From: an uncultured Mycoplasmatota bacterium
Lineage (GTDB): Bacteria; Bacillota_I; Bacilli_A; RF39; UBA660
Direction: 5' to 3'
DNA length: 46,876 bases
Assembly (NCBI GenBank): GCA_946528555.1
Contig: CAMMYS010000007.1
Coordinates: forward strand, 1 to 46,876
Below, piece after piece: positions 765 through 44,042 of this stretch (position 1 is the stretch's first letter; every line of letters starts with the position of its first letter). The notes under the pieces are model-generated. The model was not told where the DNA came from. It searched no databases and saw only the letters and a program-made list of their open reading frames with translations. The position numbers and the translations under genes are program-made.

Positions 765-1439
765 ATGAAAAAGAAAGGATTTACATTAGTTGAATTACTA
801 GCTGTTATTGCTATCCTAGCTATTTTAGTTATTATTGCATTACCAAACGTATTAGGAATGTTCAACCAAGCAAAGAAAAATACATTTGTTACTGAACTTC
901 AATCTATTTACGACACAGCTGCAACTCAATTTGTTAGTGACTCAATGGGAGACATGAGCAAATGGTCTGGTGGTATTACATATGCTAGAGTTAGTGGTAC
1001 AAGAGTAGCTCAATCAACAGAAACTGGATACAAATTATTAGATTTAAGTGGTACTAATGCAATTGATTATTATATTCACTTCAATCTTGCTGGTGAAGTT
1101 ACTGAGTTCTATGCTACTGACAAACAATATCAATTTATTTACAACGGTCCTGGTTTAAAGAAAGAAAGAATCGGTGCTACAAATATTGATAGTAAAGATC
1201 ATCAATTATCAAATGATGCATTAGATAACCCACCAACAAATCTTGTTGTAAGTGTTGAAGTAGGAACTGCTGGAACTACTGACGTAAATACTGGTGTTAT
1301 CACAATTGCTGATGCACAATCATATTTACCAAAAGCTTTCTCAAGAGTTGCTTTAACTCTTAAAGACAATGGTAAAACTGGTACAGAATTAGTTTCTAAC
1401 TATCAATGTGAAGTTGCATTAGCTGCTGACAGTGACTAG
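765..1439 (+). CDS. Type IV pilin-like protein (class III signal), probably the major subunit
   Basis: The protein has 224 residues. The N terminus is a textbook prepilin signal: three Lys, Gly5 as the cleavage site, then FTLVE with Glu at mature position 5, and a hydrophobic helix to about residue 30 ending in LPNVLGMF. A prepilin peptidase would cut after Gly5 and methylate Phe. The soluble head (about 35-224) is Asp/Thr/Ala-rich and has a single Cys. The gene has its own near-consensus promoter and its own terminator, and it uses more C-ending codons (AAC, TTC, GAC, ATC) than most neighbours, the usual mark of high expression in an AT-rich genome. It is therefore the best candidate for an abundant filament subunit; a GspG/ComGC-like pseudopilin is the alternative. 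No pilus motor or peptidase gene lies in the window. Confidence 0.85.
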   Translation: MKKKGFTLVELLAVIAILAILVIIALPNVLGMFNQAKKNTFVTELQSIYDTAATQFVSDSMGDMSKWSGGITYARVSGTRVAQSTETGYKLLDLSGTNAIDYYIHFNLAGEVTEFYATDKQYQFIYNGPGLKKERIGATNIDSKDHQLSNDALDNPPTNLVVSVEVGTAGTTDVNTGVITIADAQSYLPKAFSRVALTLKDNGKTGTELVSNYQCEVALAADSD

Positions 1440-1543: not shown

Positions 1544-2308
1544 ATGAAACGATATTTAGAATCACATATAAAAGTATTAAAAGGGGTGTATTATTTCTTA
1601 TTTATAATTCTTTTTGCTGAGTTAATTATTTTTGCATATTATCATATGGTTAATGAAAAGGCTGTAAAGATGTTACAAGGTGTAATTCACTATGATGGTA
1701 ATCATTCACTTGATTTTGATATAAATGAAGTGGTTGTTGATTTGAATGAAACAAGACCAAATATAATATATGTTGAAGATAATTCTACAAATCCTAGCAA
1801 GCCTAATAAAAAAACAAAGATTATTAAAAGCACAGTTTACAAATTTGAATATGATAATAATTATAATAAAAATTGTGAACTTGAAGAAGACTTTGTTTGT
1901 GCTAGTAGTAAAAAAATACTTGGTTATGCTGGTAATAAGTTATATTTAGATAAAATATATGTTAGTAGTGATAAAAGCGTAATAATTGGTTTATTTGAAC
2001 ATAATATTTATGCTTATAAGAAAATATATAATAATGAGAGCACATGTGCTGATAAATCTTTTGGAAAGTATGAAATTAAAAATAATAAACTATATTTAGA
2101 TGAAAAAGCTAGTGTATATTGTGATGGATGTGTAAATACTAATAAAACTAAAGATTATTCTTTTGAAATTAAAAATAAAACTATTAAAGATTCAATTAGT
2201 AATAAAGATTTAATACTACAAGAAAAATATAATGAATATGTAGTTAATATTGCATACGAACTTGGATATTTTGATGGAAATATCTTATGCAAGGATATTG
2301 GATTTTAA
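1544..2308 (+). CDS. Single-pass membrane protein of unknown function in the pilin operon
   Basis: The protein has 254 residues. A short basic N terminus is followed by one hydrophobic segment (about residues 13-33) and a mostly extracytoplasmic region containing several Cys, including the motif CDGC. The second half holds a beta-rich pattern, GKYEIKNNKLYLDE, which resembles the phrase GTYEYKDNTLYMNN in the lipoprotein at 37422. Both may share a small lipocalin-like beta fold, but that is inference. It lacks the G-FTLVE prepilin signal. The gene is first in an operon with the giant LRR-prepilin (15-base gap), which suggests a role in assembly, anchoring or folding of that protein. I do not recognise a family. 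Confidence 0.7.
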   Translation: MKRYLESHIKVLKGVYYFLFIILFAELIIFAYYHMVNEKAVKMLQGVIHYDGNHSLDFDINEVVVDLNETRPNIIYVEDNSTNPSKPNKKTKIIKSTVYKFEYDNNYNKNCELEEDFVCASSKKILGYAGNKLYLDKIYVSSDKSVIIGLFEHNIYAYKKIYNNESTCADKSFGKYEIKNNKLYLDEKASVYCDGCVNTNKTKDYSFEIKNKTIKDSISNKDLILQEKYNEYVVNIAYELGYFDGNILCKDIGF

Positions 2309-2323
2309 GAAAGAAGGTTTATT

Positions 2324-5300
2324 ATGAAGAAAAAAGGGTTTACATTAGTTGAATTACTAGCAGTAATTGCTATACTTGCAATACTTGTATTAATAGTACT
2401 TCCTCAAGTACTTGTTATGTTTAGAAAGTCACAAGATGATGCTTTCTTAATTGAAGCAAGAGCTATTATGAATGCTGCTGAAAAGAAATTGTCTCAAGAA
2501 ACATTTAAAGGAGATGTTGAAGATAAAATATATTGTTCATCTTCTGGAGAAATTATTAATGAGTTAGATGTCACAGGTAGACAAATATTCTACTTAATTT
2601 ATGTTAAGAATAGTAAGATTGTTATGTATGCTATATCTGATAATACAGAACATACAGTATTCAATATTGATGAAGAAAATGGTCTTACTGCTAAAGATAT
2701 AACTGAATTATATGATAACGTAATCGAAATAAAAGACTGCGATTTAGATTATTTAATGGCTACTAAAGGTATCAATCCTGAAGACCAATATGACTGGATA
2801 ACTTATAATTGTGATGATCAAGGAAACTGTATTCCAATCAAAGTTCCATATTCTGGATTTACTGGTTATTCTTGTCAAACATCTGGACTTGAACCAACAT
2901 CTGCTAAATGGTTTGAATTTGATAAAGCTACTAAAACAATAACTAATTATATGGGTGAAGCTAAGTCAGTTATTATTCCATGTAAGTGGGCAGGTGTCAG
3001 AGTAGAAAAAATTGCAAGCAATGCATTTAAAAATAAAGGTATTGAGCAATTATACATGCCAGATACAGTTAAAGAAATTGGTTCTCAAGCATTTTATGGT
3101 AATAATATAAATCAAGTTTATTTAGGAAATAATGTAACTTCAATTGGATGTGGAGCATTTGCTAATAATAAATTGAAATCTGTATTATTGCCAAGAGGAA
3201 TTACTTCAATTGGTACTACTAGTTGTGGTAGTGGAAATGGTGTTTTCCAAAACAATCCAAATCTTGAAGCTGTTAAGTTCCAATCTAATGCAATTACTAC
3301 TATTGGATCATATACATTCTATAATACAAAATTATCTTCAATAGATTTAAGTTCACAAAATAAATTAACTAGTATTGGAAATTATGCTTTTGCAAATAAT
3401 AGAAATCTTGGTGCTATAAGATTAGCTACAAGTGTTACATCAATTGGAGATTATGCTTTCTATGGTGCTGGATTAAAATCTATATACTTATCTAGTCAAA
3501 AGGGTGTAACAATTGGTCAAGAGGCATTTGCAGATAACTCAATTTCTAAAATAACATTGAGTGGAGTTAAGTCACTTGGACCAAATGCATTTAGAAACAA
3601 TCAAATGCCTGATAGTCAAGCATATATAATGAATGTAGATGCAAATGGAAAAGAAACAGGGGTGTTAAACTCTTATGCAGGAGCTTCAAGAACAAATTTA
3701 ACATTCCCAGCAAAAGTAAGAGATATATCTCAAGTTTCATTTAGGAATATGGGATTAAAAGGTACATTAGATACAGGAAACTCAATAGAAGTTATTCCTG
3801 GTACTGGATATTCTAGTGGAGCTTTCTATAATAATCAATTAACAACAGTAATAATAGGTTCAAGTGTTAAAACTATTAAACAATATGCTTTCCAATATAA
3901 TCAGATTAGTGAATTAGTATTTAGACCTGGAGCTTTAGAAAAAATAGAGTGTGGAGCCTTCCATAGTAATAAACTTGTCAGTGTTACATTACCAGATAGT
4001 TTAGTACAATTTGGTGAAAGCTGTTCATATGGTCCATTTGAAAGTAATAGTTTGTTAACTACAGTTAAATTTGGTAAAAACTTAGAATCAATTGGTAACT
4101 GGGCTTTCTCAGGATCTAAACTTACATCTGTTGATTTTAGTAAAACTAAATTAAAAACTATTGGTAATATAGCTTTTCGAAATAATAATATTTCTGAATT
4201 GGTATTTCCAAGTACATTAGAAAGTATTGGTTCTGAAGCATTTAAAAATAACAAATTAACTAAAGTACATATTAGTGGAAATAATTTAAGTATTGGAAAC
4301 AATGCATTTTCAAATAATCAAATCACAGAAGTAGAAATTAGTGGTAATGGTAATAGATTCGATAGTAACGTATTTAGTTCAAATAGCATTAATAAATTAA
4401 ATATACATGGAACTAATATTAGTATTGGAAGTGAAGTTTTTGCTAATAATCAAATTTCAGATTTTAGTATGAGTGGTGTTACATCATTAGGAACTAATGC
4501 ATTTAGAAATAATAAAATGCCACCTGAAACAGCATTTATAATGCAACCAGATTCTTCTGGAAAACCTACTAAAGTATTAAATAGTTATGGTGGAGCTGCA
4601 AGATCTAATCTTGTTATTCCTAATACGGTAACACAAAGTGGTTATACAGTTAATCTTGAAGAAATACCTGGAAATGCATTTTCTGGTCTTGGATTAACAG
4701 GAACTGTAACAATGGGTAATAACCTTAAAAAGATAGGTTCTTATGCATTTGCAGGCAATCAATTAACAGGTGCTACTTATCCTGCTGTTACATCATTAGG
4801 ATTAAATGCATTTAAGAGTAATAAGTTCCCTGCTGATAAAGCATTTGTCATGAATATTAATTCTGATAGAACTGAAACTTCAACATTAAATAGCTACGCA
4901 GGTGAGGGAAGAAGTAATATAACAATTCCTAATAAAGTTACACAAATTGATTCTACAAACTTCTATAATGGAAGTTATGCTATTACATTATCTGGTACAT
5001 TAAATACTGGAAATGGACTTACAGAAATACCAGATTATACATTCTATAGCAGTGGAATTACTTCATTAGCTTTAGGAACAAATGTTGAGACTATAGGTGC
5101 TAGAGCATTTGCGTATAATAGTTCTTTAAAAACAATTGACTTTAATAATAAATTAAAAACTATTAAATGGGGAGCATTTTATAATACAGGCCTTGAAACA
5201 TTAACATTACCAAATAGTGTTGAGTTTATAGGTGGTATTACAACAAGTAATAGTTATTATAATTCTTATAAGAGAGGATATGATTCTTATGTTCCATGGA

Positions 5301-6685
5301 GTTATAGCTATACAAGTAGTAGTCCATATTATGGTGCTTTCCAAGGTAATACTAAATTAAAGAGTGTAACATTTGGTAGTGGTATTCAAACTATGGAACC
5401 ATTAGCATTTTATGGATGCTCAAACTTAGAAACTATTGATATGAGTAAGATTAATAAATTATCTGTTATTCCTGACTTTGCATTTACTTATGGAAAATAT
5501 AGTAAAGTAACTATTCCTGCCTCTGTTACTAAAATTGGAGATTATGCATTTGATAGAACTACAGCTTTATCTGAAATATTTGTAAAAGGTAAAGCACAAA
5601 TAGAACAATTCGAAGAAGTTGGTAAGAGATGGAATGGTGATTGTACAAATATTAAGTTTGAAATTGAATCTTGCTTTGGACATAATGGTGCTGTGCTAAC
5701 AAATTATAATCCAACATGTTCTAAGAAAGCTGTAATACCAGAAACTATTGATGGTGTTAATATTACAACAATTGGTTCTAATACATTTAATGGATTGAAT
5801 TTAACTAGTGTTTATGTTCCAAATACAATTAAAAATTTAGAAGCTGGAGCATTTAATAATGCAACAGTAGATTATATAATGGCAGCAGGAAAAACAAATG
5901 AAAATAACTTTACTACACATCCAGAAGGATGGAATAATGGAAATCATGTTATATACGAAAAGGATCAATTAACTTGCTTAAAACTTGATAATAGAAATGT
6001 ATTAACTGGTTATTATTATGATGCTAGTATATGTGATAAGAAAGTTAAAATTCCTAATACTGTTACTGGTACTACTGCTGATGCATTAAAAGGTATGGCA
6101 TTAACAAATATTATTGTAGATGATGGTACAAGACTTACTACAAATGGTATGGGTGCTAGATGGAATGGATCTGTTCCATTTGTACAATTTAATGGTGATA
6201 GTTATGATTATAACTGCTTTACATTAAACGGAAGTACTATAACAAGTTACAGAGATTTCTGTAGACAAGATGTAGATTTAAATAGAACTGATGGAATTAT
6301 TCAAGGAGTTAAGATTACTAAGATTGGTGCTAATTCATTTAAAGAAACAGGAATTACATCATTTAAGTTTACTGATGATATTACTGAAGTTGGAGATAAT
6401 GCATTCTCTGGAAACTATGAGTTATCTGATGTTAAATTCCTTAATACAATTAATAATGATAGTAGTAACTTATATAAGATAGGTAATAATGCTTTCTATA
6501 ACTGTGATTTAGTTAGCGTAAACTTACCTGGTTCTCTAAAAATAATTGGCGATAATGCTTTTGATGATAATATTAAACTTTCAAAGATAATTGTTTTAAA
6601 TAAAACATCATTTGCTGAGTTTGAACATTTAGGAACAAGATGGAATGGTGATTGTACTACGATTGCATTCCAAAGAAATCGTTAG
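2324..6685 (+). CDS. Giant prepilin fused to BspA/Treponema-type leucine-rich repeats
   Basis: The protein has 1453 residues. Residues 1-30 repeat the prepilin signal of the gene at 765 (KKKG, then FTLVELLAVIAILAIL). After a short linker, from about residue 210 to the end, come many LRR_5 units of the form IGxxAFxxNxLxxVxLPxS, the BspA/Treponema pallidum LRR type found in bacterial adhesins. Three copies of a separate module begin at about residues 421, 725 and 828 (NAF, then ANNxMP-like, LNSYxGxxRxN and a proline-valine strand). The C-terminal third has two-Cys modules starting at about 1117, 1218 and 1298, and the phrase RWNGDC twice. Ordinary pilins have 120-250 residues, so this is an adhesin displayed by a pilin anchor, or a tip subunit. 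The start follows an AGAAGG site 15 bases after the preceding gene. Confidence 0.88.
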   Translation: MKKKGFTLVELLAVIAILAILVLIVLPQVLVMFRKSQDDAFLIEARAIMNAAEKKLSQETFKGDVEDKIYCSSSGEIINELDVTGRQIFYLIYVKNSKIVMYAISDNTEHTVFNIDEENGLTAKDITELYDNVIEIKDCDLDYLMATKGINPEDQYDWITYNCDDQGNCIPIKVPYSGFTGYSCQTSGLEPTSAKWFEFDKATKTITNYMGEAKSVIIPCKWAGVRVEKIASNAFKNKGIEQLYMPDTVKEIGSQAFYGNNINQVYLGNNVTSIGCGAFANNKLKSVLLPRGITSIGTTSCGSGNGVFQNNPNLEAVKFQSNAITTIGSYTFYNTKLSSIDLSSQNKLTSIGNYAFANNRNLGAIRLATSVTSIGDYAFYGAGLKSIYLSSQKGVTIGQEAFADNSISKITLSGVKSLGPNAFRNNQMPDSQAYIMNVDANGKETGVLNSYAGASRTNLTFPAKVRDISQVSFRNMGLKGTLDTGNSIEVIPGTGYSSGAFYNNQLTTVIIGSSVKTIKQYAFQYNQISELVFRPGALEKIECGAFHSNKLVSVTLPDSLVQFGESCSYGPFESNSLLTTVKFGKNLESIGNWAFSGSKLTSVDFSKTKLKTIGNIAFRNNNISELVFPSTLESIGSEAFKNNKLTKVHISGNNLSIGNNAFSNNQITEVEISGNGNRFDSNVFSSNSINKLNIHGTNISIGSEVFANNQISDFSMSGVTSLGTNAFRNNKMPPETAFIMQPDSSGKPTKVLNSYGGAARSNLVIPNTVTQSGYTVNLEEIPGNAFSGLGLTGTVTMGNNLKKIGSYAFAGNQLTGATYPAVTSLGLNAFKSNKFPADKAFVMNINSDRTETSTLNSYAGEGRSNITIPNKVTQIDSTNFYNGSYAITLSGTLNTGNGLTEIPDYTFYSSGITSLALGTNVETIGARAFAYNSSLKTIDFNNKLKTIKWGAFYNTGLETLTLPNSVEFIGGITTSNSYYNSYKRGYDSYVPWSYSYTSSSPYYGAFQGNTKLKSVTFGSGIQTMEPLAFYGCSNLETIDMSKINKLSVIPDFAFTYGKYSKVTIPASVTKIGDYAFDRTTALSEIFVKGKAQIEQFEEVGKRWNGDCTNIKFEIESCFGHNGAVLTNYNPTCSKKAVIPETIDGVNITTIGSNTFNGLNLTSVYVPNTIKNLEAGAFNNATVDYIMAAGKTNENNFTTHPEGWNNGNHVIYEKDQLTCLKLDNRNVLTGYYYDASICDKKVKIPNTVTGTTADALKGMALTNIIVDDGTRLTTNGMGARWNGSVPFVQFNGDSYDYNCFTLNGSTITSYRDFCRQDVDLNRTDGIIQGVKITKIGANSFKETGITSFKFTDDITEVGDNAFSGNYELSDVKFLNTINNDSSNLYKIGNNAFYNCDLVSVNLPGSLKIIGDNAFDDNIKLSKIIVLNKTSFAEFEHLGTRWNGDCTTIAFQRNR

Positions 6686-6694
6686 GAGGTTATT

Positions 6695-7576
6695 ATGGGA
6701 AAAAGAACTATTGTAATCATTGCTAGTATTGTTGCTATTGTTGGAGCAGTTGTATTCAGACTAGTCATGAATAATAAAACTGAAGAAGAACAAACAACAA
6801 GCGATAAAACATGTTTTAAATATAGTGGTACGAAAATTACAGGTTATTATTACAATTTATGTGGTAAAGAAGTAGTTATACCAAGAATATTAGGAGGAGT
6901 TGAAGTACAATCAATAGGGGAATCTGCATTTGAAAATATGCAAATTACCTCTGTAACTCTTCCTGATTCACTTCTTGAAATTGAACAATATGCTTTTAAT
7001 AAAAATTTAATTGAAAGTGTAGTTATACCAGAAAAAGTAACATCTATTGGAAAAAATGCTTTTTCTAACAATAAAATTTCTAATTTAGAATTTAAGAGTT
7101 CTAAAATAGATTTTGGTGAAACACCATTTAATAATAATTTATTAGATGATAAAAATGCATTTATATATGATATGTCAAGTGGTTTAGATACATCTTATAT
7201 TGTTAGTTATGCTGGTAAAAATAGAGATAATGTAAAAGTTCCAAATGGAGTTAAAAACATAGGACCATATGCTTTTAGTGACCAAGAAATCAAAAAAATT
7301 ACGCTAGATAAAGATTTAGTTGTAATTGGTAATGGTGCTTTTGTAGGAAACAACTTTGCTGAAATTACTATTCCTGGAAAAGTTGAATCATTAGGAGATA
7401 ATGCATTTGACTATAATATTCAACGAATAGTTGTTGAAAATAAAGGAAAGATTGATGACTTTAGTTATTATGGTATGCAAACATTTTTAGAAGATGTGTT
7501 AATATTTGATGGTAAAACTAAAAAAACTGAAAAAGAATTAGAACTTGAAAAAGTAGAAGAAGGTATTATTCAATAA
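6695..7576 (+). CDS. Membrane-anchored leucine-rich-repeat (LRR_5) protein
   Basis: The protein has 293 residues with a signal anchor at about residues 5-25. The outer part begins at Cys40 with CFKYSGTKITGYYYNLC, the same two-Cys module that occurs near the end of the giant prepilin. It is followed by LRR_5 units (IGESAF, IGKNAF, LGDNAF) and one copy of the SYAGxxRxN module. A lysine/glutamate-rich tail ends the protein. An AGGAGG site lies just after the stop of the giant prepilin (9-base gap), so the two are co-translated. The shared modules indicate that the genes arose by duplication, with the prepilin signal replaced by, or exchanged with, a normal membrane anchor. It may be a cell-bound docking partner for the prepilin adhesin (inference). 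Confidence 0.82.
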   Translation: MGKRTIVIIASIVAIVGAVVFRLVMNNKTEEEQTTSDKTCFKYSGTKITGYYYNLCGKEVVIPRILGGVEVQSIGESAFENMQITSVTLPDSLLEIEQYAFNKNLIESVVIPEKVTSIGKNAFSNNKISNLEFKSSKIDFGETPFNNNLLDDKNAFIYDMSSGLDTSYIVSYAGKNRDNVKVPNGVKNIGPYAFSDQEIKKITLDKDLVVIGNGAFVGNNFAEITIPGKVESLGDNAFDYNIQRIVVENKGKIDDFSYYGMQTFLEDVLIFDGKTKKTEKELELEKVEEGIIQ

Positions 7577-12980: not shown

Positions 12981-14621
12981 GTGGATAATTCAAATTTATA
13001 CAATTCATTAATAGATAATTTTGGAACAGTTACTGTTTTAGATAATGGATATTATTTTGCTATTGATAAAGCTGGCAATAGAATGTATATTAATCCAAAT
13101 TCTAGCTCTAACGTTAATTTAGTTGCATATTATCCTGGTAATGGTGGTTTAACAGTAAATAGTACAGGTGGAATATTTTCTAAATTGGAAGGAAATAATC
13201 CTCCTGATTATTGCATTATATTATCAAGTAATAGAGATGACCCAAGTAACATTCTAAAAAGAGCAACTAGCATTTTAAATGATAATAATTATAACATTAC
13301 TAATTTAATAACCTCAGGTAATAGTGGCAGTGGAGGAACTGTTTTAACGAGAACTGCTGATTATTTGACTTCACATCCAGAATTAGCATCATCCACAGTA
13401 ATAGATATAAATGATGGGTATAATATGCCATTTAATTATAAAAATTATGATGTATTAAAAAATAATAATGTTCCAATACTGTTTGTTTCACCATCAAAAG
13501 AATATTGTTCATCTAGAGCAAGAGGGGTTAATAAATTTATATTACCTTTTGCGCAATCTGGTTTTAATCTGATAAGTATTAATACTGATGATTGGAATCA
13601 TGCAGGAATATGTAATTATTTTTTTATAAATGGAATACCACAATATATTTTTGGAAGTTCTAATGAAATAGGTAGTGATTATGTAGTTAGAAGCCCTAAT
13701 TATCAGGCATATAAGTATAATCCACAAACAAATAAATATGAATTAGTGGATATAAGTCAAATTAAATTAAATACTATTATTAAGCCAGAAAATATAGAAA
13801 TATTTGATCCAAGTACTTATTTAAATGAGGATAATTATTCTTTTAAAGAAATATCTTTGAAATCTAGTAGTAATTTTGATGATTTAAAAGATATAGGCGG
13901 TGTTAGTATTAATGTTCCAAATAAATTAGTTAATACAGAACAAATAAAATCAAATATAGATTTTATAACTAATGCTATGAATTCTATTAGAAGTAATATT
14001 AGTAGTTCTAATTTTTTAGGAGATATTAGAATACCAAGTTTTAGAAGTTTTAATGGTATACCTGGATGTATAGGGGAATATATTGATAAATATTATGATT
14101 ATGTTGGAGATTTAATGGACTTGCTAACTGAAGAAACAGAAGCAATAACAAGTTTAGGCCAAGTAATGGTAGATATGGATAATGATTTGGCTGAAAGAGG
14201 AAGCGTTCTAGGTAGCATTAAAGAAATTGAAAGGACTCCAAAGACAAGAAACAAAGAGCCTTTAAATCAAATAGAAAAAAATGTTAACATAGTAAAAGAA
14301 CATTCTCAAGAAAAATCAATTTCTAAAGAAAGCAGTAAAATAGAGACAATTAATATAAATGATTATTTACAGTATAAAAGAAATGATGGTAGCCTTTTAT
14401 TAATAAAACAGGATAATGATAAAATAAAAGAAGTATTATATAAATACGATTATAAAACTGAAGCACAGGCAAAATATATGTGTGATAAATTTAAAGATAA
14501 ATATAAAGGTAATAATGACATTTCAAATATAATGTATGAAGATAAAAATGTATATATTATATTTAAAGAAAATGTATTTAATAATATGTCTTTAAATGAA
14601 GTAAAAGAAAAATATAAATAG
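12981..14621 (+). CDS. Large protein: hydrolase-like N domain, helical middle, charged C domain
   Basis: The protein has 546 residues. Residues 35-235 look like an alpha/beta-hydrolase-type domain: NLVAYYPGNGG strand-turn, TSGNSGSGGT (111-120, a candidate nucleophile elbow with Ser117), a strand VPILFVSPS and DWNHAG with His207. Residues 315-415 are long helices (IDFITNAMNSIRSNI, YDYVGDLMDLLTEETEAI) reminiscent of WXG/LXG-like secreted proteins. A Lys/Glu-rich linker and a small alpha/beta C domain (about 455-546) follow. GTG at 12981 is the start: GTAGGAG lies seven bases before it. The next gene starts eight bases after the stop and is all-helical, so the pair resembles a type VII-type substrate with its partner. 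No type VII core gene is in the window, so this is inference. Confidence 0.6.
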   Translation: MDNSNLYNSLIDNFGTVTVLDNGYYFAIDKAGNRMYINPNSSSNVNLVAYYPGNGGLTVNSTGGIFSKLEGNNPPDYCIILSSNRDDPSNILKRATSILNDNNYNITNLITSGNSGSGGTVLTRTADYLTSHPELASSTVIDINDGYNMPFNYKNYDVLKNNNVPILFVSPSKEYCSSRARGVNKFILPFAQSGFNLISINTDDWNHAGICNYFFINGIPQYIFGSSNEIGSDYVVRSPNYQAYKYNPQTNKYELVDISQIKLNTIIKPENIEIFDPSTYLNEDNYSFKEISLKSSSNFDDLKDIGGVSINVPNKLVNTEQIKSNIDFITNAMNSIRSNISSSNFLGDIRIPSFRSFNGIPGCIGEYIDKYYDYVGDLMDLLTEETEAITSLGQVMVDMDNDLAERGSVLGSIKEIERTPKTRNKEPLNQIEKNVNIVKEHSQEKSISKESSKIETININDYLQYKRNDGSLLLIKQDNDKIKEVLYKYDYKTEAQAKYMCDKFKDKYKGNNDISNIMYEDKNVYIIFKENVFNNMSLNEVKEKYK

Positions 14622-14629
14622 AGGTAAAT

Positions 14630-15283
14630 ATGGATATACAAGTATATGCTGATGAAATATCAGCTTTAAAAAATTCTAGTGTATTTTCATCATTAAAATA
14701 TGATTCTAGTGAATCTATGAATATGGATAGAACAATTACAAATTTTATTTCAACTGCTAAAATTAAATTAAGTGGAGTTGGATGGAATGAAACATATAAT
14801 AAATTAATTGAATTTGAAAAATTATTAATTAAAAGAACTGAAGTTGCTGAATCATTGTCTAATGCGATTGAATCTGCAATGACACTAATATCTAGTTATA
14901 TGGTTGGGTATCCATATTTAGATTTATCAAAATTAGGCGAAATTAAGTCTTTAAAAAAACAATGTGAAAATAACATATCATATATTGAATCAGTAATGTA
15001 TTCTAAAAAATCTGAAGAAATATTTGATTCAGAAACAGAAGAAATAATAACAGTTACTAAAAACACTTATACAGATTCTGAAATAAATGATTTTAAATTA
15101 AGTATTAATAAACTAAAACAATCAATTGATGAGATACAAAAATTAATAGATAAATTAGAAGGATTAGAAGCTATTTATAGAGAAGCAGAAGGAATATTAC
15201 AATCCGCATTTGAAGAAATTGAATCATTCGGAAAAGAAGTAAAAAATATTATTCCTAATAATAAAGTTGTTTATATAAAATAA
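14630..15283 (+). CDS. Helical partner protein (WXG/LXG-associated-like)
   Basis: The protein has 217 residues and is almost entirely helix-forming, with heptad-like coiled coil at about 95-215 (LKQSIDEIQKLIDKLEGLEA). An SGVGWNETY turn at 49-57, with Trp52 between two helices, recalls the helix-turn-helix of WXG100/ESAT-6-related proteins, although the order is G-W and not W-x-G. It has no signal peptide or membrane span. A GAGG site precedes the ATG and the gene follows the hydrolase-like gene by eight bases, so the two should be made together. A chaperone or co-secreted partner for the upstream protein is the most economical reading. An unrelated coiled-coil structural protein cannot be excluded. 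Confidence 0.55.
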   Translation: MDIQVYADEISALKNSSVFSSLKYDSSESMNMDRTITNFISTAKIKLSGVGWNETYNKLIEFEKLLIKRTEVAESLSNAIESAMTLISSYMVGYPYLDLSKLGEIKSLKKQCENNISYIESVMYSKKSEEIFDSETEEIITVTKNTYTDSEINDFKLSINKLKQSIDEIQKLIDKLEGLEAIYREAEGILQSAFEEIESFGKEVKNIIPNNKVVYIK

Positions 15284-15371: not shown

Positions 15372-18300
15372 ATGAGAAATATAAAAAAGAAAAAAGGGTT
15401 TACTTTAGTTGAATTATTAGCAGTAATTGCTATTTTAGCTTTACTTGTAATAATAGTTCTTCCAAATGTTTTAAGAATGTATAGAAATGCTAGAAAGGAC
15501 TCTTTTGTTACTGAAGCAAAGACTTTATTTAAGACAGTAACAAAACAAAACTTTTTAACTTATAATAAGCCACGTATTTTTAATACTGGTGATTTAGATA
15601 TATCTGGTGGTCCTGATCTTGAATACTCTGTATCTACTGATCAATTAGGTCAAGTGTTGTGTTTTCAAGTAGCAAATACTGATTTTATGTGGATATATAG
15701 AAATAATGGTCAACCACTTACTGATGAAGAATCAATAGCAAATGAAGATGAGATTACCGAAAGAGATCATGATATTATTATTGATTGTTCTGGTGCTCAA
15801 ATGTTTGATACTACTATTCCTGCTACACTTGGAACTGGTGAATCTTGGTGGGAAGGCGATTATGATAAAACACAAATAGAAAGAATTATATTTACATATT
15901 CAAAAACAGAAGATAATTATGATCAAACTTTCTATAGTGATGCAGAAAAAGTAGGTGGATTAACTACTTATATTAAAGGAAAAATAGCTTATATTGTAAT
16001 AAATAGAAATAAGAGAAAAAGTAAATCTATTGTGATGCCTGAAGATTCATCAAATACTTTTGCTGGATTTACTAATTTAAAAAATATTCAAGGTTTAAAA
16101 TTATTAGACTTTAGTGGTGTTAAAAAAATGGATAACTTCTTTGGAAGATATAGCAATGGGGAAGTTATTAGTGGTTTAACTTCAATAAATGGTTATGATA
16201 CATTTAATACTTCTAATGTAACAAGTGCTAAATATGCATTTGCTGGTGTTAAACTATCAGCAATTGATTTAAGTAATTGGAATGTTGGTAAATTAATGGA
16301 TGCAACTGGAATGTTTTATAAATCAGGTGCTACTTTAATTAACTTATCTGGATGGAATTTACAAAGCTTAGTACATTATACTGATATGTTTGCAGGAAGT
16401 AATAAACTTGAAAGTATTAATCTTAACGGATGGAATACAAATCCTAATGCTAATTATGGTGGTATGTTTAATGATTGTACTAATTTAGTTTCTGTTAGTA
16501 CTGGTAGTGGCTTTAAAGTTAATAAGACTGATACAGTTATGTTTAAAAATGATTCTAGAATTACTGGTGGTCATGATACTACATTTATTAATGATAAGAG
16601 TTTATATGCTAGAGTAGATGGTGGAGAAAGTTCTCCTGGATATTTCTCATCAAATAATAGTGATGGAGTAGTTTCTGCTAAGTTATATGATTCTGGAACA
16701 GTATCTGGTTCATATACTGATTTAACTAACACTGGAGCAGTTCCTTCTGATTGGGATTATTATGTAGGAGCTAGATTACTTGAAGTTAAAGTTTATTCTA
16801 TGAAAACAGGCTCTCAAAAGACATTAGAAATTTCTGTTCCTGCAGGTATGTATATAGTAAATAATTCTTGGACTAAATCAGGTGGTGGTATATCAAGTGT
16901 TAACTTTACTAAACTTGCTAATCAAGGAACTGGATCTTATTCAAATGCTAATACAGGTACTTTAAAATATACATTTGGATCTTCAGCAACATCAGGTAGT
17001 GTTCAAATGTTAGTAATGTTTGATAGAGCAATTTGGGATAAAAATAAAAAGAATGCTTCTGCTTTTGGAACTGATAATATGACTTTAACAGCTCCAATAG
17101 TAGTTAATTATAATAATGGTAGTGTAATAAGAAAGATTTCTAATATACATAGTGCTGTAAGTATTGGTAAAGCTAGTAATGGAATGGGTTATTCATTCTA
17201 TACTTATGATTACAATAGTAATATTTATATTGATGATGCTACTACATTACTTGCAAGTAATTCATTATTGTCTTCAGATCAATCTGGAAATCCATATTTC
17301 TTTAAAAAGGTTACTTATGAAACTTATGCAACATTTAAAGATACTAGTGGTAAAGTTAAATATGCTACAATTGAACAAGGTGTAGTACCTAGTAATTTAG
17401 GAACTAATGTTTCAAATGATAGTAATGAAACTTATTATGCAGGTGAATGGAATAATGTTTATAGTTCAAGTGGACTTGCATTCCCAAGACCTAAATACAA
17501 AGTTAAATCAGAAGATAATCCAAAACTTGGAACTAATTTAACTGTATATATTAAAGCTAAAGTTACAAGTTTATCTGGTCAAACTAGGTCATTATCGGCT
17601 ACTAAAAATTATATTATAAAATCTAAAGATTTAGATTTAACAGACTTTATTATAAGTAGTGGTGAAAAGGCTTCACCTTCAGAAAGTTATTATGGAAATT
17701 CTGGATATTCTGGAATACTTGGTGTATTCACTATGTATAATAAAGGATATGAAGATATAAATAATGTTAAAGTTGTATTTGAATATGATACAGGTACTGC
17801 TAAAAATCAACCTCCTGGAATGAAAGTTTTAGCAGCAAGACCTTTCTTACAAAATGGACAAGAAGTTAATGCTAAAATAACGTTAGTTAGTGATACTGGT
17901 GCTGAGGTTGAAGTACCAAGCTTTAAGATTAAATCAACAAGTAATACTAATGGAGCATATGTCTCACATGCTGCAGTAGCTGCTTCAGTTGGCTTAGGTT
18001 CAAATTATTATTTGAAAAAGATTGAATATACTATTCCAGTAGTAAGTGGATTTGATAAGAAAACAGGACAAATTAATTACCTATATCATAGTCAAGGAAG
18101 CCATTCACAATCTAGTGGTGGAAACTTTATAGGTGTTGTTTCAAAACAATCTACATCTAAATGTAGTGTTTACTATAACAATAATTTAGTAAAAACAGTA
18201 ACGTCTACTTCTAAGGTAACTAATACTCCAGGATTTAGTGGATTTATTAATAGAATTAATACACCACTTGGAACAGAGTTTACAGCAGGAGATGATATTG

Positions 18301-18830
18301 AACTTGCAATTAATGTTTCTAGCTGTTCATATCCATATACTAATACTCAAGCATTTAGCAAGCCTGAAGTATATTTAGTTCTTCCTTTTGGAATTAATGT
18401 TGATAGTGTTCTTATTGGTAATTCAGCTGCAATTTCAACTTCTGAGACACCACCAGTGGTAACAAAAGTTAAAACAATGAGTGTAGGGGATGTATTAAGT
18501 AACGTATATAAAATAACTACAAGAGATAATATATGGTTTGGTTATTTAAATGCAACTAGTACAGGCGCTACAAGCGGACAATATGCTTCAAAATGGTTTA
18601 GAGTTAAATTAACAACAGATTTATCTATGGAATATACAAGTATTAATTTAAGAGATAGTGTATATTTTAAAGATGCATCTGGACATATATCTATAAGTGG
18701 ATCTTATGCTCAATATTCTATTAGTGACCAATTTGATGTTGATAATGATGGATCTACTAGTGATAGATATGGTACTACTAATAACGCTAATCAAATAATC
18801 AATATATATGAAGCAAGTGAGGATGAATAA
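15372..18830 (+). CDS. Giant prepilin with BspA-type (DUF285) repeats and beta-rich stalk
   Basis: The protein has 1152 residues. It starts MRNIKKKKG, then FTLVELLAVIAILALLV: a prepilin signal cut after Gly9, with Glu at mature position 5. After about residue 215 come DUF285/BspA repeats with the pattern MFxxxxxLxxINLxxWN (for example SAIDLSNWNVGKLMDATGMF). These end in the typical LYARVDGGESSPGYF. The rest, to 1152, is a long Ser/Thr/Asn-rich beta region that probably folds into several Ig-like domains. The C terminus has DVDNDGSTSDRYG, an Asp-rich loop like calcium sites in dockerin or EF-type repeats. It is probably displayed by the same machinery as the pilins at 765 and 2324. A lipoprotein gene follows almost without a gap. 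The start ATG follows a modest AGGA site. Confidence 0.87.
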   Translation: MRNIKKKKGFTLVELLAVIAILALLVIIVLPNVLRMYRNARKDSFVTEAKTLFKTVTKQNFLTYNKPRIFNTGDLDISGGPDLEYSVSTDQLGQVLCFQVANTDFMWIYRNNGQPLTDEESIANEDEITERDHDIIIDCSGAQMFDTTIPATLGTGESWWEGDYDKTQIERIIFTYSKTEDNYDQTFYSDAEKVGGLTTYIKGKIAYIVINRNKRKSKSIVMPEDSSNTFAGFTNLKNIQGLKLLDFSGVKKMDNFFGRYSNGEVISGLTSINGYDTFNTSNVTSAKYAFAGVKLSAIDLSNWNVGKLMDATGMFYKSGATLINLSGWNLQSLVHYTDMFAGSNKLESINLNGWNTNPNANYGGMFNDCTNLVSVSTGSGFKVNKTDTVMFKNDSRITGGHDTTFINDKSLYARVDGGESSPGYFSSNNSDGVVSAKLYDSGTVSGSYTDLTNTGAVPSDWDYYVGARLLEVKVYSMKTGSQKTLEISVPAGMYIVNNSWTKSGGGISSVNFTKLANQGTGSYSNANTGTLKYTFGSSATSGSVQMLVMFDRAIWDKNKKNASAFGTDNMTLTAPIVVNYNNGSVIRKISNIHSAVSIGKASNGMGYSFYTYDYNSNIYIDDATTLLASNSLLSSDQSGNPYFFKKVTYETYATFKDTSGKVKYATIEQGVVPSNLGTNVSNDSNETYYAGEWNNVYSSSGLAFPRPKYKVKSEDNPKLGTNLTVYIKAKVTSLSGQTRSLSATKNYIIKSKDLDLTDFIISSGEKASPSESYYGNSGYSGILGVFTMYNKGYEDINNVKVVFEYDTGTAKNQPPGMKVLAARPFLQNGQEVNAKITLVSDTGAEVEVPSFKIKSTSNTNGAYVSHAAVAASVGLGSNYYLKKIEYTIPVVSGFDKKTGQINYLYHSQGSHSQSSGGNFIGVVSKQSTSKCSVYYNNNLVKTVTSTSKVTNTPGFSGFINRINTPLGTEFTAGDDIELAINVSSCSYPYTNTQAFSKPEVYLVLPFGINVDSVLIGNSAAISTSETPPVVTKVKTMSVGDVLSNVYKITTRDNIWFGYLNATSTGATSGQYASKWFRVKLTTDLSMEYTSINLRDSVYFKDASGHISISGSYAQYSISDQFDVDNDGSTSDRYGTTNNANQIINIYEASEDE

Positions 18831-40214: not shown

Positions 40215-41861
40215 ATGGATAAAAAACTTAAGAAAAATAGTTTTATACAAGGTACTTTAATAGCAAGTATTGCTCTTATATTTATTAAAGTATTAGGTGC
40301 TGTATATGTTATACCATTTTATAAAATAGTAGGTGAAGATGGCGGTACTTTATATAGTTATGCTTATAGTATATATAATTTATTTTTAAATATTAGTACA
40401 GCTGGAATTCCTGTTGCGATGAGTATGATTATTAGTGAATATTTATCGCTTGAAATGTATGATGCTAAGGAAAGAAGTTACAAAGTTGGAAAATATATGG
40501 TTTTAATACTAGCAGTAGTATCTTTCTGTTTGGTATTTTTTGGAAGCGATTTCTTAGCAAGATTTATTTTATCTAATAAAACAGATGGTCATAGTATAGA
40601 AGATGTATCTTTAGTTATTAAATCTATATCATTTTGTTTATTAATAATTCCATTTTTAAGTATATTACGTGGATATTTACAAGGACATAAATACATTTCT
40701 TCTACTAGTATAGCTCAAGTAATAGAACAAGTAGTAAGAATATTAATAGTTATTTTAGGATCATATGTATCAATTAAAATATATAAAAGTAGTATTCCTT
40801 TAGGAGTAAGTGTTGCTCTTTCTGGAACATTCTTTGGTGGTTTATTTGCATATGTTTATTTAAGAAGAAAAATAGCTAATAATAAAAAAGCTTTTCCAGT
40901 ATCTGATAAGAGAAACAATATTAGTAATATGACTCTTGCTAAAAAGATTCTTACTTATTGTATTCCACTTGTAATAATTGCTGTAACAGATAATTTATAT
41001 ACTTTAATTGATATTAAACTTATTATCAAAGGTTTAAATATGGTTGGATATAATACTTTAACAGCGGAAACAATATCAAGTATATTATCTACTTGGTCTC
41101 CTAAAATATGTGCTGTTATAGCAGCTATATCTGTAGCATTAACAACTAATATTATTCCTCATGTTACATCTTATTTTGTATGTAAAGATTATAAAAATGT
41201 TATTGAGAAAGTTAATCAAGCAATATCTACAGTTCTTATTATAACTATTCCAATGGCTACATTATTATTCTTACTTTCAAATGAAGCATATTTTATTTTC
41301 TATGGTAATAGTGAATATGGACCATTAATATTAAAAACTACTGCTATTATACATGTATTTTTTAGTGTTAATGCTGTTTTAACTAGTAGTTTACAAGCTA
41401 TGAAAAAATTTAAAACTATTTATTTAAATACATTTATTGGTTTACTTACAAATGCTTGTATGGATATTCCAATGATATTACTTTTAAATAAACTTGGATT
41501 ACCAGCATATATAGGTACATCTTTAGCAACTATAATTGGTTATACAGTATCTATTAGTATGTCATTAATATATTTAAAGAAAAACTTAAATTTCAATTAT
41601 AAAAATGTATTAAAAACATTAGTTAAAACAATTTTACCATTTGCTTGTTTATTAGTTCCTGTATTATTATCTAAGATATTTATTAAATATGAATATAATT
41701 ATTTAACATCATTTGTATCATTAATAATTCATGGTTTATTTGGTATGTTTATATACTTATTTGTAATATATAAAAATGGAAACTTATCAGATGTTTTTGG
41801 TCGTGAATATGTTAATAGATTATTAAAAAAGTTTCACTTAATTAAGGAGAATCATGAATAA
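40215..41861 (+). CDS. Lipid II/oligosaccharide flippase, MurJ/SpoVB-like (MOP superfamily)
   Basis: The protein has 548 residues with about 14 membrane spans. The start SFIQGTLIASIALIFIKVLG, the following IPFYKIVGEDGGTLYSYAYSIYNLFL and AGIPVAMSMIISEY are typical of the SpoVB/YtgP (MurJ) group of Gram-positives, which moves lipid-linked cell-wall precursors across the membrane. LRGYLQGHKY is also a family phrase. It overlaps the alanine racemase gene by eight bases, supporting a wall-precursor role (MurJ) over an exopolysaccharide role. The ATG has a rather distant GTGGAG site. Confidence 0.9.
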   Translation: MDKKLKKNSFIQGTLIASIALIFIKVLGAVYVIPFYKIVGEDGGTLYSYAYSIYNLFLNISTAGIPVAMSMIISEYLSLEMYDAKERSYKVGKYMVLILAVVSFCLVFFGSDFLARFILSNKTDGHSIEDVSLVIKSISFCLLIIPFLSILRGYLQGHKYISSTSIAQVIEQVVRILIVILGSYVSIKIYKSSIPLGVSVALSGTFFGGLFAYVYLRRKIANNKKAFPVSDKRNNISNMTLAKKILTYCIPLVIIAVTDNLYTLIDIKLIIKGLNMVGYNTLTAETISSILSTWSPKICAVIAAISVALTTNIIPHVTSYFVCKDYKNVIEKVNQAISTVLIITIPMATLLFLLSNEAYFIFYGNSEYGPLILKTTAIIHVFFSVNAVLTSSLQAMKKFKTIYLNTFIGLLTNACMDIPMILLLNKLGLPAYIGTSLATIIGYTVSISMSLIYLKKNLNFNYKNVLKTLVKTILPFACLLVPVLLSKIFIKYEYNYLTSFVSLIIHGLFGMFIYLFVIYKNGNLSDVFGREYVNRLLKKFHLIKENHE

Positions 41862-43032
41862 AAAACAAACAGAAGTAATTATTAATTTAAAAAATTTAGA
41901 ATATAATGCTAAAAGTATTTGTGAAAAGTTTAAAGATTATAAATATAGAATAGGTGTATTAAAATCTAATGCTTATGGTCATGGATATAAAGTAGTAAAT
42001 AGTTTTATTAAAGGTGGTATTAACTATATAGCAGTTTCATATATTAGTGAAGCATTAGAAATTAGAAAATATAATAAAGATATACCTGTTTTATGTATGC
42101 AACCAATAGTATTAGATGATTTAGATATAGCTATTAAAAATAATATTACTTTAACTATACATTCTATTAATTATTTAAAAGAATTAATTAATATTTTAAA
42201 AGATAAAATAAAAGTTCATATTAAAATAGATAGTGGAATGAATAGACTTGGTTTAAAAGAAATAGATGATGTTAATGAATGCTATAAATTAATAAATAAT
42301 AATAAGTTTATTGATTTAGAAGGAATATATACACATTTATCTACTACTGGTATATTTGATAAAAATTGGGATAATCAAATTGATAAGTTTAAATATCTTA
42401 CTAAAGATATTGATTTAAAATCGATTCCAATTGTTCATTTATATAATTCTAATAGTTTATTAAATCATGATAAACTAGGTTTTGCTAATGGATTTAGAAT
42501 TGGTATTGCTTTATATGGATATAATGTGAATGCTCATTATTCAAATTCTGGTACTAAAAATAAATTACGTAATATGAGAACATTATATTTTAGAAAAAAA
42601 TATAATATTAGTAAAATTAATTATGATATAGATATTGATCTTAAAAGAGCTATGTTTATGAAAACATATTTATTAGATATTAAAAAAATCAATAAAGGTG
42701 AATCTATTGGATATGGTGCTAGTAAAATAGAAAAAGATATGTTAGTAGGAATCCTTCCAATTGGATATGCTAATGGAATAGGGCACTCTAGTAATAGATA
42801 TGTACTTATAAATGATAAAAAATATCATATGATTGGTCAAATGAGTATGAATATGATGATGATTGAAGTTGATGATAAAGTTAATATTAATGATGATGTA
42901 ATAGTTTTAGGTAAAAGTATTACAATTGGACAATTATCTAGATTTAATAATAAAGAAGTACCTGAAACTTTGTTAGAAGTTGGTAATTGCAATAATAAAA
43001 CTTATTTGGAGGATGATTCAATATGGGTGTAA
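41854..43032 (+). CDS. alr: Alanine racemase
   Basis: The protein has 392 residues. It converts L-Ala to D-Ala for peptidoglycan. The PLP lysine is Lys37 in LKSNAYGHG. The second catalytic Tyr is in SIGYGASK. Barrel motifs IKIDSGMNRLGL, EGIYTHLSTT and GFRIGIALYGY are present, and GQMSMNMMMIEV replaces the usual GxxxMDxxM, with Asn where Asp is common. A lysine/arginine-rich insertion (NKLRNMRTLYFRKKY) precedes the C-terminal beta domain. AAGGAG lies before the ATG inside the flippase gene. It overlaps the next gene by ten bases, so flippase, racemase and ATP-grasp protein form one coupled unit. Confidence 0.94.
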   Translation: MNKKQTEVIINLKNLEYNAKSICEKFKDYKYRIGVLKSNAYGHGYKVVNSFIKGGINYIAVSYISEALEIRKYNKDIPVLCMQPIVLDDLDIAIKNNITLTIHSINYLKELINILKDKIKVHIKIDSGMNRLGLKEIDDVNECYKLINNNKFIDLEGIYTHLSTTGIFDKNWDNQIDKFKYLTKDIDLKSIPIVHLYNSNSLLNHDKLGFANGFRIGIALYGYNVNAHYSNSGTKNKLRNMRTLYFRKKYNISKINYDIDIDLKRAMFMKTYLLDIKKINKGESIGYGASKIEKDMLVGILPIGYANGIGHSSNRYVLINDKKYHMIGQMSMNMMMIEVDDKVNINDDVIVLGKSITIGQLSRFNNKEVPETLLEVGNCNNKTYLEDDSIWV

Positions 43033-44042
43033 ATATGTGGTTACTTAGAAAATTTAAGACTATAGATAGAACTAGAATGAAAAAACACCTTGATGTTTTA
43101 GTTAAAGATAGTGGAAAATCTAAAGGATATATTTTATTTGATATGGCAAAAAACTTTTTAAAAAGAGGTTGTAGTTATACAGATTATTTTAGAGGAAACT
43201 ATTTAAATATTTCAGAAGAAGAAAAAGATACTTTTGTAACAGCGGGTTCTTTTAGAAAAATAGTTCATTATTTAAATGATCCTAAATATACATATATATT
43301 AAATGATAAATTAGTTTTTAATAAATATTATAAAGAATTCTTAGGAAGAGAATATATTAATTTGCAAAAGTCTTCTCTTGATGAATTTGTTGATTTTTTA
43401 AGAGATAAAAAAATAGTATTTGCTAAAAAATTACATGGTGAAGGTGGACAAGGTATTAGAAAAATAGAAGTTGAAAAAGAAAATCCTAAAACTTTATATA
43501 AAACTTTAAGAGACAATAAGCAATTCTTAGTAGAAGAAGCAATAAATCAATGTAAAGAATTAAATGAATTAAATCCAAATGTAGTAGCATCTTTTAGAAT
43601 AATTACTCTATATAAAGATGGTAAACCACATTTAATTGGTAATGCTCTTAGAATAAATCAAGATAGTAAAGATGTCATTGGATGCACTAATGATTTATAT
43701 TTTTCTTTGAATGATAAGGGTAAAATTAGTAGTAATGTGGTTGATGATTATGGAAATATTTATGAAGAGCATCCATTAACACATAAAAAATTTAGTGAAG
43801 TGGTTATACCTCACGTTAAAGAAGCTTTTGATATGTGTTTAAAAGCTGCTTATGATTTACCACAAGTAAGATATATTGGATGGGATGTTGCTTTTAGTGA
43901 TAAAGGGCCAATTTTAGTAGAAGGAAATGAATATCCTGCATATGGTTTAGTTCAATTCTATAAATTAAATAATAAAAGTACTGGTCATAAAAAAGAATTA
44001 GAAGCAATATTAAAAGATGAAATTAAAAGAATAGGTATTTAA
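43023..44042 (+). CDS. ATP-grasp protein (sugar-transfer-associated ATP-grasp family)
   Basis: The protein has 339 residues. The ATP-grasp pattern: KIVFAKKLHGEGGQGIRKIE (nucleotide-binding loop), FLVEEAINQ (hinge strand), VASFRIITLYKDGKPHLIGNALRI, and the C-terminal metal site YIGWDVAFSDKGPILVEGNEYP. This matches the ATPgrasp_ST group often found with polysaccharide genes. It should ligate a carboxylate to an amine, but the substrates are not known. GGAGGATG lies before the ATG within alr. The tight coupling to alr suggests a D-Ala-containing envelope compound (inference). A terminator follows. Confidence 0.85.
   Translation: MGVNMWLLRKFKTIDRTRMKKHLDVLVKDSGKSKGYILFDMAKNFLKRGCSYTDYFRGNYLNISEEEKDTFVTAGSFRKIVHYLNDPKYTYILNDKLVFNKYYKEFLGREYINLQKSSLDEFVDFLRDKKIVFAKKLHGEGGQGIRKIEVEKENPKTLYKTLRDNKQFLVEEAINQCKELNELNPNVVASFRIITLYKDGKPHLIGNALRINQDSKDVIGCTNDLYFSLNDKGKISSNVVDDYGNIYEEHPLTHKKFSEVVIPHVKEAFDMCLKAAYDLPQVRYIGWDVAFSDKGPILVEGNEYPAYGLVQFYKLNNKSTGHKKELEAILKDEIKRIGI

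Follow-up and report, generated by a model that had tools for sequence, protein, structure and literature searches.

An open reading frame (ORF) encoding a giant leucine-rich repeat (LRR) prepilin of 1,453 aa was identified at positions 2324..6685 (forward strand, as are all features described below) in a 46,876-nucleotide stretch of DNA with a GC content of 25.5%, referred to here as the window, from an uncultured Mycoplasmatota bacterium (assembly GCA_946528555.1, contig CAMMYS010000007.1) that is presumably Gram-positive. The gene lies third in a row comprising a small prepilin of 224 aa (765..1439), which is the candidate major pilin, a single-pass membrane protein (1544..2308), the giant itself and an LRR_5 protein with an ordinary membrane anchor at its N terminus (6695..7576). 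The frame is open from ATG to TAG over its full 1,453 codons, as an earlier note made from the sequence alone had claimed, and direct reading places AAGAAGG ahead of the ATG at 2311-2317. The canonical class III signal proposed in that note was borne out by PF07963 (N_methyl) on residues 2-26 (E 7e-7, 29 bits against a cut-off of 21.2) and by the prepilin domain TIGR02532 of NCBIfam (28.7 bits against 16.3), and the BspA-type LRR array by PF13306 (LRR_5), found in 11 stretches well above its gathering cut-off (E 1.3e-159, 523.3 bits against 27.7); these matches are far beyond chance. The giant thus combines a class III signal containing Gly-1 and Glu5 with an extra domain that is not specific to pili, two features of a modular type IV pilin.

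The predicted leader peptide, MKKKG (2324..2338), is expected to be cut between G5 and F6, as indicated by PF07963 and TIGR02532, by the conservation of Gly-1 and Glu5, and by Protein Data Bank (PDB) alignments of the small pilin, whose first 22 residues are identical to those of the giant and in which residue 1 of the solved pilin chains coincides with profile position 6 in 7 of 11 matches. A PDB sequence search with the giant returned two geopilin chains matching its N terminus, the remaining matches being mostly LRR structures (4fd0, 4fdw, 4gt6 and PcpA 4cp6). A hydropathy scan with 19-residue windows and a threshold of 1.3 detected a single hydrophobic segment, covered by the windows that start at residues 1-19; the rest of the chain has none. 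The signal is followed by a module of ~130 residues that separates it from the repeats (residues 6 to ~145, 2339..2758), is predicted to consist of a long helix (residues 8-62) and beta strands, and is homologous to that of the small pilin beyond the helix. A linker region of low model confidence (2720..2905; pLDDT <50 at residues 133-162 and 171-191) leads to the BspA-type LRR_5 solenoid (residues ~195-1450, 2906..6673). Because the pilin module precedes the repeats, the LRR part spans ~1255 residues rather than the 1400 stated earlier. A simple pattern counted 36 repeat units in it; a recurrent insert in the repeats was considered and dropped when the pattern search returned nothing. An LRR solenoid rises by ~0.5 nm per repeat, so that ~35 units would give a length of 15-20 nm, to an order of magnitude. 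Foldseek searches with the models of the giant and the small pilin gave no usable match.

The N terminus of the giant is far more conserved than the remainder of the protein. Among five giant orthologues (P0001-P0005, of which P0002-P0005 are 58-75% identical to P0001), 34 of 35 N-terminal positions are invariant, against 54 of 115 at positions 36-150 and 498 of 1303 beyond. As a control, six homologues of the anchored LRR_5 neighbour were compared, and only 5 of 27 anchor positions were invariant, as were 13 of 43 at positions 28-70 and 69 of 223 in the LRR part. Small-pilin and anchored-LRR orthologues seem to travel with the giant as linked genes, since the longest contigs are equal in size (53931 for P0005/P0038/P0162, 8511 for P0002/P0154 and 7258 for P0003/P0037); no matching contig size was found for P0004 among the listed relatives. 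In three orthologue pairs matched in this way, which come from three genomes and are not independent, the giants are identical at 26 of 26 positions in residues 1-26, 58-78% identical at residues 27-200 and 54-72% over the rest, whereas the LRR neighbours are 42-50% identical in the anchor and 51-69% in the solenoid. With 34 of 35 positions invariant while the neighbour's anchor has drifted to 42-50%, the giant's N terminus is, at the sequence level, unlike an ordinary anchor and under extreme constraint. All 32 members of a set of giant prepilins, which was collected with this N terminus, have Gly-1 and Glu5. Of 26 relatives of the small pilin, collected without it, 19 have both residues; the seven exceptions are five proteins on a different anchor and two that begin further downstream. 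A six-frame search of the window for the class III motif pattern found three places (768, 2327 and 15384), each in a separate ORF. The pilin-like subunit of the earlier note is supported as a prepilin-type protein carrying a giant solenoid, and it is not the only prepilin of the window. The first 31 residues of the three prepilins are identical at 26-27 positions in each pair, and the same codon is used at only 11-17 of those, indicating old divergence under protein-level constraint.

On the basis of this architecture, the homology of the pilin modules and the N-terminal constraint, the giant is probably a modular type IV pilin that is cut after Gly5, enters a filament of the small pilin and displays its LRR_5 solenoid for binding. 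The chain would cross the membrane by its class III signal and be cut by a prepilin peptidase, after which the conserved helix would pack into a type 4 filament made mainly of the small pilin. The pilin module would then carry the solenoid outwards, where it could bind a protein or glycan on the host or a neighbouring cell. By analogy with PilB of Streptococcus sanguinis, the giant may sit at the tip or, since the linker is of low confidence, rarely along the filament side. For PilB, modelling favours the tip, as a subunit within the body of the filament would clash sterically with its neighbours, although the body would be possible if the linker were flexible (PMC8179133). According to a review, Glu5 makes a salt bridge to the neighbouring subunit, and a subunit without Glu5 caps a tip complex (PMC10191384); unlike that capping subunit, the giant retains Glu5.

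The most serious alternative, though an unlikely one, is that the giant, processed or not, never leaves the membrane and acts as a surface adhesin with a single membrane pass, its pilin helix serving only for anchorage. Next to the giant lies an LRR_5 protein that has an ordinary anchor, and in P0155-P0159 the ectodomain of the small pilin (60-65% identical) is found on an ordinary membrane anchor with no prepilin signal; therefore, such ectodomains also occur as anchored proteins. In addition, no pilus assembly gene, PilB, PilC and PilD included, was identified among the 34 ORFs scanned with Pfam, out of 36 of at least 100 aa (the remaining two are antisense inside other genes), in a machinery search that was confined to the window. 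However, a mere anchor should drift like that of the neighbour, yet residues 1-26 of the giant, with Gly-1 and Glu5, are unchanged in all three matched pairs, and the giant shares the pilin module beyond the helix. The uncleaved membrane anchor that the earlier note named as a possible refutation is thus made less likely by the contrast in conservation.

The giant could also act as a minor pseudopilin in a pseudopilus, competence or type II-like, that serves DNA uptake or secretion rather than adhesion, which appears improbable: ComGE, ComGC and GspG of NCBIfam match its N terminus only weakly, and none comes near its curated cut-off (24.6 of 49, 21.5 of 75 and 21.5 of 88.85 bits, respectively; ComGD was not listed), and a solenoid of ~1255 residues would presumably be superfluous in such roles. 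That the pilus machinery has been lost in the lineage and the signals persist for some other reason is more improbable still, since the strong N-terminal constraint in the five orthologues and the three near-identical prepilin starts in the window speak against a relic, even though no machinery was seen among the scanned ORFs and a survey of Gram-positive type IV pili reports Mollicutes as being without these genes (PMC3244431). Type IV pili are mentioned for one gut lineage with reduced genomes, in a text that does not tie them to the window (PMC12306168).

A survey of monoderms and diderms counts >1,200 modular pilins, which fall into 264 architectures; the 15 commonest of these include one with IPR026906 as its extra domain, for which no clear function is listed (PMC8179133); this entry corresponds to LRR_5 (PMC8613185, PMC5998147). 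Thus, the pilin-LRR_5 plan, called unusual in the earlier note, is already known, and it is the size that is unusually large. The giant resembles PilB in having an N-terminal class III signal, a small pilin module and then a domain not specific to pili, but processed PilB is 454 residues long and carries a single vWA module (PMC8179133), as against ~1255 residues of LRR_5 in the giant, and the likeness is one of sequence. The modular pilin named as most extreme in domain number has 860 residues, the longest not being stated in that account (PMC8179133). Beyond this work, title listings yielded no LRR pilin paper that was noticed, and pilus terms are absent from PMC10868615, PMC7301438 and PMC9606305. 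Giants of this kind would be overlooked by a combined filter considered in the Gram-positive survey, which keeps proteins of <350 residues (PMC3244431). The giant is therefore a member of a known design that is notable for its size and for the unexplained membrane-anchored "twins" of the same ectodomains, and it probably uses a thin filament to display a type of repeat domain that frequently serves in binding. The repeat family is shared with HupY/LrrG (NF047961, 250 bits, against the 1250 bits of this equivalog model) and PcpA (4cp6_A, E 5.3e-14). Those proteins have other means of attachment to the cell, and in the giant, unlike them, LRR_5 follows a pilin module that bears a class III signal. 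Modular pilins account for the many functions that simple filaments acquire, and a chassis showing >1,200 residues would test the load limit of the filament and tip-only placement.

A search with residues 1-200 of the giant, which admits only proteins of at least ~800 aa, identified 32 proteins of 801-1487 aa among 448 candidates. According to precomputed Pfam annotation, seven of these, including that of the window, carry LRR_5, seven carry DUF285, and 18 carry other domains or PF07963 only. PF07963 is also joined to LRR_5 in P0045 (368 aa) and P0067 (413 aa), found among 120 listed of 308 homologues of the anchored LRR protein; therefore, the combination of prepilin and LRR_5 recurs at several sizes. 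The giant DUF285 prepilins (P0009-P0012, P0014, P0016, P0017 and that at 15372-18830 in the window) have the same prepilin start but a different displayed repeat. A rather speculative extension is a two-mode display system in which a conserved pilin chassis brings exchangeable giant ectodomains (LRR_5, DUF285 and others) onto the filament and paralogues fix the same kinds (LRR_5, and the small pilin's head in P0155-P0159) to ordinary membrane anchors. Each binding surface would then exist both in a far-reaching filament form and at the cell surface, allowing capture followed by docking.

A scan of genome contigs with the giant found eight loci, in which matches start at residue 176 or later and cover LRR only, with no pilin start; PF00437 was matched in four of the six genomes behind them and exceeded the cut-off in three, a result that is uninformative on the window's lineage. 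In a 398-genome sample of one phylum (that of G001), scored for at most two candidates per genome, 132 genomes had a match; among the matches listed, identity reaches at best 42%, over residues 191-381, and the N-terminal ones hit short reading frames. The window's AspRS matched all 299 genomes of a sample of that phylum, at 37-42% identity among the matches listed apart from three of 48-52%, so that the host probably lies outside the phylum; it may be a low-GC member of class Bacilli. Viral contigs gave 14 loci matching within residues 1-47 at most, with no PF00437 match in six of those records. The giant has matches in 35 plasmid records, which start at residue 179 or later in the 30 that are listed, and the small pilin matched no plasmid record; PF01478 was matched in none of three viral and three plasmid records. 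On eight IMG/VR contigs classed as viral (L016-L023; 31-34% GC), a prepilin-like protein of 306 aa recurs that hardly varies in the 70 N-terminal residues shown. VIA-align relatives of the small pilin were set aside, many of the 25 entries shown being unrelated, the fifth already among them.

Within the gene row, the protein at 1544..2308 has one hydrophobic segment and no Pfam or NCBIfam match, and ends 15 bases before the giant. The anchored LRR protein begins 9 bases after the giant and matches PF13306 (E 2.7e-33) but not PF07963; its best BLAST stretch is 32% identical to the giant's LRR, and a deoxyribonuclease IV gene lies downstream. Visual inspection shows an inverted repeat downstream of the small pilin (~1464-1490) that the terminator scan did not report, and promoter-like sites did not exceed shuffled sequences (44 against a mean of 52.4). 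The second giant prepilin (15372..18830, 1152 aa) has DUF285/PARCEL-like repeats (PF07963, E 7.4e-7; PF03382, E 6.8e-30), the PARCEL models falling below their cut-offs. The two proteins upstream of it (12981-15283) have no Pfam match above cut-off and, by eye, may resemble LXG/type VII substrates. Elsewhere in the window, flippase-like, alanine racemase and sugar-transfer-associated ATP-grasp genes stand in a row at 40215-44042. The AspRS proteins of G228, which has a second AspRS-like gene, G148 and G075 are 48-52% identical to that of the window, against 37-42% among the other listed matches.
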